DNA of 64,000 bases from contig NZ_CP127390.1 of assembly GCF_030286045.1 (NCBI RefSeq), positions 1,753,482 through 1,817,481 on the forward strand, in the 5' to 3' direction. Every line of letters starts with the position of its first letter. Within the stretch, counting starts at the first letter, position 1. The notes below the pieces were generated by a model. It was not told the origin of the DNA, did no database searches, and saw only the letters and a list, made by a program, of their open reading frames with translations. Shown in pieces: positions 19,516 through 21,274 of the stretch. Made by a program: the position numbers and the translations under genes. Origin of the DNA: Propionimicrobium sp. PCR01-08-3 (GTDB lineage Bacteria; Actinomycetota; Actinomycetes; Propionibacteriales; Propionibacteriaceae).

Positions 19516-19878
19516 TCAGGCGGCAGGCTGGGCGGTCTGGGCAACCTTCACCAGAGAGGCGAAAGCAGCCGAGTCGCTGACGGCCAGCTCGGCGAGCATC
19601 TTGCGATCGACCTCGACACCGGCATTCTTCAAACCCGCGATGAAGCGGTTGTAGGTCATGCCGTTCTCGCGGCAGGCGGCGTTGATCCGCTGGATCCACA
19701 GGCTGCGGAAGTCGCCCTTCTTGGCGCGACGGTCGCGGAATGCGTAGACGCCCGAGTGCAGGGTCTGCTCTTTGGCCTTGCGGTACAGGCGGGACCGCTG
19801 CCCGCGGTAGCCGGAGGCCCGCTCGAGTACCTCGCGACGCTTCTTTTGTGCGTTGACTGCGCGCTTGACGCGTGCCAT
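19516..19878 (-). CDS. rplT: 50S ribosomal protein L20
   Basis: Early assembly protein of the large subunit, 120 residues. The sequence is typical: [20 protein letters not shown], then [16 protein letters not shown], then [20 protein letters not shown]. In several bacteria L20 represses its own operon by binding the infC-rpmI leader; the structured leader here makes such feedback possible but unproven. Third gene of infC-rpmI-rplT. Confidence 0.98.
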
Positions 19879-19917: not shown

Positions 19918-20136
19918 TCAGCCGCGCTTGGACTTCGGCTTGTAGCCACCGATCAGCTTGCGGACCTTCTTGGCGTCACCGGGCTCGAGGACACCGTCCA
20001 CATTGAGCCGGCGGGTGCGCTTCGACGGCTTGTGCTCGTTCAAGTGGCCCTTGCCCGCGCGCTTGTGCGTCAGCTTGCCGCTTCCGGTTACCTTGAACCG
20101 CTTCTTGGCACCGGAGTGCGTCTTCATCTTCGGCAT
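19918..20136 (-). CDS. rpmI: 50S ribosomal protein L35
   Basis: Small basic large-subunit protein, 72 residues, slightly longer than the usual 64-66. It begins MPKMKTHSGAKKRFKVTGSG and contains the HKPSKRTRRL segment. The added residues are at the C-terminus (KLIGGYKPKSKRG). The ATG at 20136 is chosen by family match; the longer upstream frame is not conserved. Confidence 0.97.
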   Translation of the reverse strand: MPKMKTHSGAKKRFKVTGSGKLTHKRAGKGHLNEHKPSKRTRRLNVDGVLEPGDAKKVRKLIGGYKPKSKRG

Positions 20137-20274
20137 TGGTGCCGCTCCATTCTCTCGATCATCCCGATGCGGAATGCCGCACCGGGGCAGGATCTGTTGC
20201 CAGATCCTTTGGCTAACATCCGGATCCGCAGGCCTGCTCACCAACGTGAGCACGACGGCCTGGGGCCCTGAGTG

Positions 20275-20958
20275 CTAAAGAACGACGTCGGGGTCCATGT
20301 TGTCTGAGGGCCCCTTCTTCTTCTTTGGTTGGCTCGTTGCCTTTGCGCGCAGCTCGGCCTCGACGCGCTTGTTCTCTTCGGCGGCCTCCTGGCGTTCGGC
20401 CATCCGCTTTTCACGCTGGACGGCCTCTTGAGCCCTGGCTTCACTCTTCTTGCGGGTGGGTGCGAGAACCATGTGCATGTTGCGGCCCTCAAGCCGGGGA
20501 GCCTGCTCCACGACGCCGTCCTCAGCGACATCCTCCGCGAGCTGCTTGAGCAGATTCACGCCGAGTTCGGGACGCGACTGTTCGCGTCCGCGGAACATGA
20601 TGGTGATCTTCACCTTGTCGCCGCCCTTGAGGAAGCGCACGACGTGGCCCTTCTTGGTCTCGTAATCGTGCTCATCGATCTTGGGACGCAGCTTCATCTC
20701 TTTGATGACGGTGTTGGCCTGATTACGGCGCGATTCGCGCGCCTTCTGGGCGTTCTCGTACTTGAACTTGCCGTAGTCCATGAGCTTCGCAACCGGCGGG
20801 CGAGCCGTCGGCGCGACTTCAACGAGGTCCAGATCGTGCTCGCGGGCAAGCTGCAGTGCTTGCTCGATACGCACGATGCCAACTTGTTCGCCCTGCGGGC
20901 CGACCAGGCGCACCTCCGGCACCCTGATCCGCTCATTGATACGAGTTTCGTTGCTGAT
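20275..20958 (-). CDS. infC: translation initiation factor IF-3 (ATC start)
   Basis: Binds the 30S subunit, prevents premature joining and checks the start codon. The protein is 227 residues if it starts at the ATC at 20958, giving the family N-terminus [26 protein letters not shown] (20964-20969) stands exactly 5 nt before this ATC. The next usable codon is the GTG at 20922, which would delete 12 conserved residues and lacks a binding site. infC using AUU, AUC or AUA as a start is a known autoregulatory device. The C-terminus carries an added charged tail (from about residue 170, [20 protein letters not shown]...), common in actinobacteria. Confidence 0.93.
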
Positions 20959-20969
20959 GACTGTCCTCC

Positions 20970-21239
20970 AATGTCGTTAGTCCGGCTGACCGGCTTGTTC
21001 CAGCCCGGTGAATGACCCGATCAAGGGCCACCGACCCAATGAAAAAGGTCTCCGCGAATGCGAAGACCTGACAGCAAGTGATCTTGCGGCATCCGGACGC
21101 CTCCGCGCCCCAGCCACATCACCCGGACATGCCGTCCGGGGTATCACTTTCAATACCGACCCGAGGCCATCGAGATACGGCCACAGGTGGAGGGTCAGGC
21201 CCTCACTTCGTTGGATCCGGCCAAGTAGGCCGATCAGCG
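20970..21239 (-). other. long structured leader of infC-rpmI-rplT
   Basis: About 280 nt lie between the predicted transcription start near 21239 and infC. Besides the terminator described separately, it has a perfect hairpin CCCGGAC-atgcc-GTCCGGG (21122-21140). No open frame with a start signal is seen. The arrangement (promoter, upstream hairpins, intrinsic terminator, then gene) is that of an attenuator. Confidence 0.55.
21042..21069 (-). terminator. intrinsic terminator in infC leader
   Basis: On the minus strand AGGTCT-t-CGC...GCG-g-AGACCT is followed at once by TTTTT (complement of 21042-21046), a complete Rho-independent terminator. It lies between the promoter and infC, so it should stop transcription before infC unless relieved. 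That is the hallmark of attenuation. Confidence 0.75.
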
Positions 21240-21245
21240 CAAGGA

Positions 21246-21274
21246 ACTATAGCCCAGACAGGTCATTTTCCCAA
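21246..21274 (-). promoter_or_regulatory. infC promoter
   Basis: TTGGGA (21269-21274) and TATAGT (21246-21251) on the minus strand are separated by exactly 17 bp. The predicted start of transcription is near 21239. This is among the best sigma-A-type promoters in the window. Confidence 0.65.

Follow-up and report, generated by a model that had tools for sequence, protein, structure and literature searches.

Results

The window, by which we mean the whole stretch of 64,000 nucleotides that was analysed, carries on its minus strand the genes infC, rpmI and rplT, in that order. The frame of infC (20275-20958), which encodes IF-3 and begins with an ATC at 20958, matches TIGR00168 infC at 2.3e-65 in a profile search; rpmI (19918-20139, bL35) and rplT (19516-19878, bL20, the proposed source of the ligand) were recognized from the open reading frame list and by profile search. 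The nearest named relatives of the source genome are Propionibacteriaceae, the closest of all being a Brooklawnia MAG. A neighbourhood check found the three genes side by side in 123 of 126 loci, and of the other three, two are cut short and one (L128, an isolated model match) is without infC. In these 123 loci, as well as in a lineage in which the genes are split, the leader precedes a unit that encodes L20. One locus (L165 in genome G177) has about 2.6 kb between infC and rplT, which is above the usual distance.

The Shine-Dalgarno sequence GGAGGA (20969-20964, minus strand) is followed by CAGTC and then by the ATC at 20958-20956, and translation from this codon restores 12 residues of the IF-3 N-terminus. 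Both the 5 nt distance and the restored N-terminus had been read from the letters in an earlier note, and the positions and the translation confirm them. The non-canonical start proposed there is also borne out by conservation: in a set of 111 loci, which includes our own genome twice along with some duplicates and near-duplicates (e.g. L001/L002 and L009/L032), 108 show ATC at this position and 3 show ATT, and two of the three ATT loci (L039, L043) have an ATC two codons earlier. The gene thus has the conserved ATH start behind a Shine-Dalgarno sequence that is expected of an infC autoregulated by IF3. Feeney et al. (PMC5472188) state that infC of Streptomyces starts with ATC, which gives IF3 self-regulation, that the annotation of most Streptomyces has this start wrong, and that IF3 represses its own translation in E. 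coli and Streptomyces. The ATC start found here is a further, ordinary instance of biology already in print.

An automatic reading of infC starts in 89 loci (88 from our phylum sample and L231) gave ATC 34, ATA 26, ATT 4, GTG 6, TTG 2 and CTG 2 times, with 14 unclear and one without a start; it is a rough picture only, as several of the GTG rows look wrong. In other classes of the phylum (L133, L141, L142, L143, L169, L172, L186 and others) the same automatic reading gives infC an apparent ATA start preceded by a Shine-Dalgarno sequence.

Upstream of infC lies a sigma-70-like promoter, TTGGGA-17-TATAGT (21246-21274, minus strand), from which transcription would start at about 21239. The site is indeed present where the earlier note had placed it, although the word "strong" used there is generous for agreement with the consensus at 9 of 12 positions. 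One promoter-like site was found versus 0.3 expected in shuffled sequences, and by eye the genus alignment, which takes in six of the eight loci available for the genus, shows the -10 box (TANNNT) in every row and TTGGG in all but one. A hairpin that we call P1 (GATCGGCC..GGCCGGATC, 21214-21235, minus strand), recognized by folding and by eye in the genus alignment, is conserved in position within the genus and not in sequence. Nearest to the gene stands an intrinsic terminator (21042-21069, minus strand) with a 10-bp stem, AGGTCTTCGC-ATTC-GCGGAGACCT, and five T at 21046-21042. Taken alone in the window it is not beyond chance, with one terminator found versus 2.5 expected from shuffles. At least one terminator-like hairpin was found within 300 nt of infC in 100 of 111 loci, in a scan run without a shuffle control, and in 98 of 111 such a hairpin stands behind the hairpin element described below, so that the complete terminator claimed at the outset has counterparts at the matching place in relatives. 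The 300 bases from 20941 to 21240 fold better than all 200 of 200 shuffled versions (z -3.95).

A perfect 7-bp hairpin, CCCGGAC...GTCCGGG (21140-21122, minus strand), to which the first reading had also pointed, exists but is local to this species. We rejected it as the core of the leader, as its stretch is unconserved within the genus; it lies outside the conserved machine and is probably a spacer.

The most conserved part of the leader is an element at 21209-21159 on the minus strand, which the first reading overlooked and which was found through the genus leader alignment followed by reading the leaders of other actinobacteria. It consists of an AA dimer (21208-21207), a hairpin P2 (21206-21189) and, directly adjoining, a hairpin P3 whose base pairs ACCUG (21188-21184) with CGGGU (21163-21159), and its general pattern is AAGYGGAG - loop - CUCCC, then ACCYG - variable hairpin - CRGGU. 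In the window, which was itself among the building sequences, a model of the element (R1) gives a best score of 40.1 bits at an E of 3.9e-07, and the next best place reaches 10.9 bits. In alignment A1, made with MAFFT from 37 chosen diverse sequences, the AA dimer and its following G, as well as two basal C-G pairs of P3, are invariant (37/37), and 96.1% of the cells pair versus at most 57.6% in slid registers. Cells changed on both sides number 34, versus 6.7 in shuffles and at most 15 in slid registers, and the number of further pair types is not unusual, being reached by 104 of 500 shuffles. The larger alignment A3, 61 sequences fitted to the model, gives the same picture: 96.2% are paired, the two C-G pairs are again invariant (61/61), and there are 79 double changes versus 21.0 in shuffles and at most 12 when slid, while the number of pairs with double changes, a weak measure, is reached by 26 of 500 shuffles. 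A second model, R2, was run on 73 held-out loci, some of them close relatives of its training sequences; it matched 70 of them, once each and always 101-237 nt before infC on the infC strand. It missed L035, L053 and L061, and gave no further match at E up to 0.05 in 402 kb.

The element and the terminator appear to be coupled. The 5' strand of P2 together with its loop (GUGAGGGCCUGAC, 21206-21194, minus strand) is complementary over 13 bases, three of them in G-U pairs, to GUCAGGUCUUCGC (21072-21060), which is made of the lead-in and an overlapping part of the terminator 5' arm, and the two are predicted to be the halves of an antiterminator. P2 and a terminator were found in this order in 98 of 111 leaders (no such pair was found in the other 13), which redundancy alone, with no other rows dropped beforehand, reduced to 83; among these pairing rows P2 is misplaced in at least two (L054, L058) and the terminator is probably misread in some Streptomyces. 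The leaders' own partners pair with a mean of -16.38 kcal/mol, which none of 20,000 permutations reaches; partners swapped between species give -13.67 (sd 0.29). When partners are swapped within taxonomic groups the mean is -15.22 (sd 0.22), and none of 5,000 permutations reaches the leaders' own value; for the loop part alone (n=72) the values are -4.82 versus -3.15 (sd 0.20), with none of 20,000. Own partners thus beat swapped ones, which indicates that the two distant strands changed together. Against shuffled partners the result is less uniform, since at most 5% of the shuffles are as good in 62 of 83 leaders and more than 5% pair as well in the remaining 21.

The folding energies were compared in two situations. 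Before the terminator 3' arm exists, the antiterminator fold of the window is ahead by 10.4 kcal/mol, and once the arm is present it is ahead by 0.5, or by 4.1 under the constraints used for the 83 leaders. Over these 83, with energies computed without a shuffle control, the full-length states differ by a median of 0.0 (quartiles -5.0 and 5.7), and in truncated folds the antiterminator is ahead in 67 and not favoured in 16. These modelled energies are arranged as in an attenuator that reads through by default, and at the level of sequence and energy the leader has a mutually exclusive terminator and antiterminator of the Bacillus type. The attenuator leader that the earlier note had proposed before infC is in this way supported by the conserved alternative pairing. 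In this species the predicted antiterminated fold contains an extra 7-bp helix, AAGTGAT/ATCACTT (21149-21143 with 21082-21076).

Searched with R1, with 48 candidates per genome scored, 119 genomes of the phylum yielded at least 15 with a single match, our own included, and 14 of the 15 matches lie before infC; the one that does not (L128, E 0.027) is probably a chance match. We also read directly 88 infC regions and two rplT regions from a sample of 100 genomes of the phylum, which includes a family (f7) that we take to be mycobacterial from its IF3 N-terminus. On these 90 regions R1 gave 32 matches at E up to 1, of which 31 are on the infC/rpmI strand, and the one off the expected strand (L159, 3347-3392) was taken as chance. 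R2, which was partly built from regions of this sample, gave 22 matches at E up to 1 on the 66 regions outside its building set, all on the expected strand, 11 having an E no higher than 0.05. One or the other model matches in 46 of the 88 infC regions and neither does at E up to 1 in 42, where the element is absent or too diverged for both. The element is well established in the class to which the window belongs and scattered in other classes. One genome (G248) has, besides its intact infC (L258), a second and fragmentary infC-like place on another contig (L264, L265), at which R2 gave no match.

Two of the 100 phylum genomes searched for both genes (G163 and G207) have infC and rplT on different contigs. 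In their class 49 genomes were searched, 45 had rplT and 30 loci were fetched, 15 of which have rpmI-rplT without infC upstream and 15 with it. In 12 of the 15 separated loci R2 matches the element ahead of rpmI at E up to 0.083 (one of these, L241, coincides with L164, a locus from the building set of the model), and by eye it is seen in 13, the thirteenth (L246) being a variant that has G-C instead of an A-U pair; no element was found at the separated loci L234 and L240. The infC locus was obtained from 13 of the separated genomes (L251-L263, from G163, G207, G243, G244, G246, G248, G253, G256, G257 and G259-G262; not from G247 and G258), and R2 gave no match at E up to 1 at any of these 13 solitary genes, two of which have only about 0.4-0.5 kb of upstream sequence. 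In the 15 linked loci R2 gave 13 matches (E up to 0.34), on the infC strand. As the element stands at most of the separated rpmI-rplT and no match to it lies by the solitary infC, it goes with rpmI-rplT and not with infC.

The solitary infC genes start, by eye, with ATG (5), GTG (4) or TTG (4) and in none of the 13 with ATH, and in this class ATC opens all 13 linked genes that could be read (L231 and L250 could not). A tree of the three proteins puts the 13 separated genomes in one clade, with a weak support of 43, and the separation probably happened once and not thirteen times; given a single event, the tie between the start codon and leaving the operon is only suggestive.

The separated loci show some variety of their own. 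G163 carries before rpmI (L162, minus strand, about 809-767) a version of the element, AAGUGGGA..UCCCCGCC..GGC, with G-C where an A-U pair is invariant elsewhere; neither model reports this version, which is followed by a clear terminator. Upstream of the solitary rpmI of L162 and L164 the neighbouring gene encodes a small protein, presumably DUF1844-like. Four loci of one family (f40: L235, L238, L239 and L241) have the element before rpmI and, by eye, no obvious terminator with a T-run, which suggests that control there may be translational.

Discussion

From these results we consider it rather probable that the leader is an autogenous attenuator through which bL20 would control transcription of the infC-rpmI-rplT operon, with the IF3 start codon as an independent second layer. 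The element, the covariation of its stems, the alternative pairing and the linkage to rpmI-rplT are read directly from the compared sequences; from them we infer the ligand, the direction of the switch and termination in the cell. During transcription the 5' strand of P2 would pair over 13 bp with the terminator 5' arm as this emerges, and the antiterminator so formed would block the terminator and let the operon be read, a state predicted as the default. Once there is more free bL20 than rRNA sites to take it up, the protein would bind the P2/P3 junction, with its AA dimer and two stacked C-G pairs, and hold P2 closed; the terminator arm would then be freed and transcription would stop before infC. 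Separately, IF3 would act on the ATC start codon, a codon that it discriminates against.

The earlier note had proposed that the two layers of control would act on the same operon. Both find support, but they probably do not share a target, since the leader follows rpmI-rplT: its place at these genes and not at infC, when the two are apart, suggests that L20 controls the transcript as a whole and that the IF3 start codon is a separate layer for infC alone.

The protein L20, named in that note only among the suggested checks, has become the best-supported candidate for the ligand. The element stands with rpmI-rplT, B. subtilis and E. coli are described as having L20 control of this operon (PMC10931766), and an AA dimer with two G-C pairs are the features that Eckert and Weinberg (PMC7247131) name for L20 leaders, which together make bL20 the best candidate. 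The AA dimer and two C-G pairs of our element form a small and generic signature, and a search of the organism's own 23S rRNA for the pattern AAGYGGRG gave one place that could not be related to the L20 site. That the same attenuator responds to bL35, to IF3 or to an unrelated factor we consider unlikely, though it is the alternative that survives best, as bL20 is itself a deduction. Linkage alone cannot separate bL35 from bL20, because bL35 is linked to the element just as tightly, and the sole counterpoint is the presence in the motif of what PMC7247131 lists as L20-site features. In favour of IF3 as a regulator here is its known self-regulation through the start codon (PMC5472188); against it, none of the solitary infC loci gave a match to the element at the threshold given above.

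We give distinctly less credit to the idea of an element working chiefly at the level of translation or mRNA stability, with the terminator as a secondary or partial stop. The four f40 loci would agree with it, and bL20 does act on translation in E. coli (PMC10931766), but the terminator arm fits the P2 5' strand of its own leader better than that of other species, a fit for which a purely translational switch has no need. Least credible of all, and very improbable, is attenuation by a leader peptide, in which translation of a short upstream frame would choose between the two folds. A 58-codon TTG frame that could serve does exist (20977-21153, minus strand), downstream of the conserved element, and speaks for it. 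Against it, the conserved positions track base pairing and not codons, and the gap between element and terminator varies widely, from 32 to 211 nt, the maximum stemming from the probably misplaced P2 of L054.

What the analysis adds is the leader, which by sequence and energy has a two-state switch common to many Actinobacteria; most likely it allows L20 to turn off its own operon, as in Bacillus but by means of a different RNA. A broader proposal, which we put forward tentatively and hold to be somewhat doubtful, is that it represents a distinct class of L20-responsive attenuators, ancestral or widespread in Actinomycetota, with the non-canonical start of IF3 tied to residence in this operon. 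On leaving it, infC would have gone over to ATG, GTG or TTG, and the leader would have remained at rpmI-rplT. It would suggest a reason why IF3 keeps its unusual start codon: if this is true, a rare start codon would serve to trim IF3 within an operon whose transcription follows the supply of ribosomal proteins. The proposed switch is defined well enough for testing by point changes, and the split lineage is a natural experiment on the purpose of the element.

A search of Rfam, which had been suggested as a check, brought no family for the leader: Rfam 15 at gathering thresholds gave no leader match, either in the window or in 18 relatives, and with thresholds relaxed the window leader and that of L119 gave none or chance-level matches only. 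For the Bacillus L20 leader itself (RF00558), none of 20 genomes scored over the 58.7 bits of the family cut-off, and our own genome gave nothing even at E 10; two chance-level matches were seen in one relative. At that cut-off the leader thus lies outside RF00558, which PMC3766115 describes as confined to Firmicutes and Thermotogales. A literature search found no description of the conserved element, and since most subscription journals lay outside it, absence from print is not established.

Among known systems the nearest in working is the L20 leader of the B. subtilis infC operon, as described in PMC6097659 and PMC10931766. It shares with ours the operon, a terminator in the leader and an alternative fold, and its L20 site at the junction of two helices has a counterpart in the P2/P3 junction proposed here; the difference is that the window leader is outside the Bacillus family. 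In the E. coli rpmI-rplT operator control likewise follows rpmI-rplT and not infC, and the site has an AA dimer and two G-C pairs (PMC7247131, PMC10931766), but there L20 acts on translation through a long-range pseudoknot and here a terminator switch is predicted. The infC start codon is known to be autoregulated as ATT in E. coli and as ATC in Streptomyces (PMC5472188), and with its ATC start and the IF3 feedback expected from it our gene shows no difference from the system as described there. Eckert and Weinberg (2020, PMC7247131) report L20 leaders in Gammaproteobacteria and Firmicutes, and their deltaproteobacterial candidate, which is predicted, belongs to another phylum and is compared here by its text description only, has the same two features of mimicry. 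If our reading is true, Actinomycetota, Streptomyces included, have an RNA that is another independent or deeply diverged way to bind one ribosomal protein.

The closest precedent within the phylum is the infC 5' UTR of M. tuberculosis, for which Arnvig et al. (2011, PMC3207917) reported a length of 326 nt and UTR/CDS read ratios of 2.6 and 4.9. The likeness lies in a long and over-represented 5' UTR. In the passages of that paper on this UTR its alignment partner is the infA UTR, and no structure, conserved motif, terminator switch or ligand test is described; by likening it to the L20 control of B. subtilis, the authors anticipate the idea of L20 control for an actinobacterial infC leader. 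Ratios of this kind fit premature termination, as attenuation predicts, and an L20-type leader could explain the over-abundant infC leader reads of M. tuberculosis.
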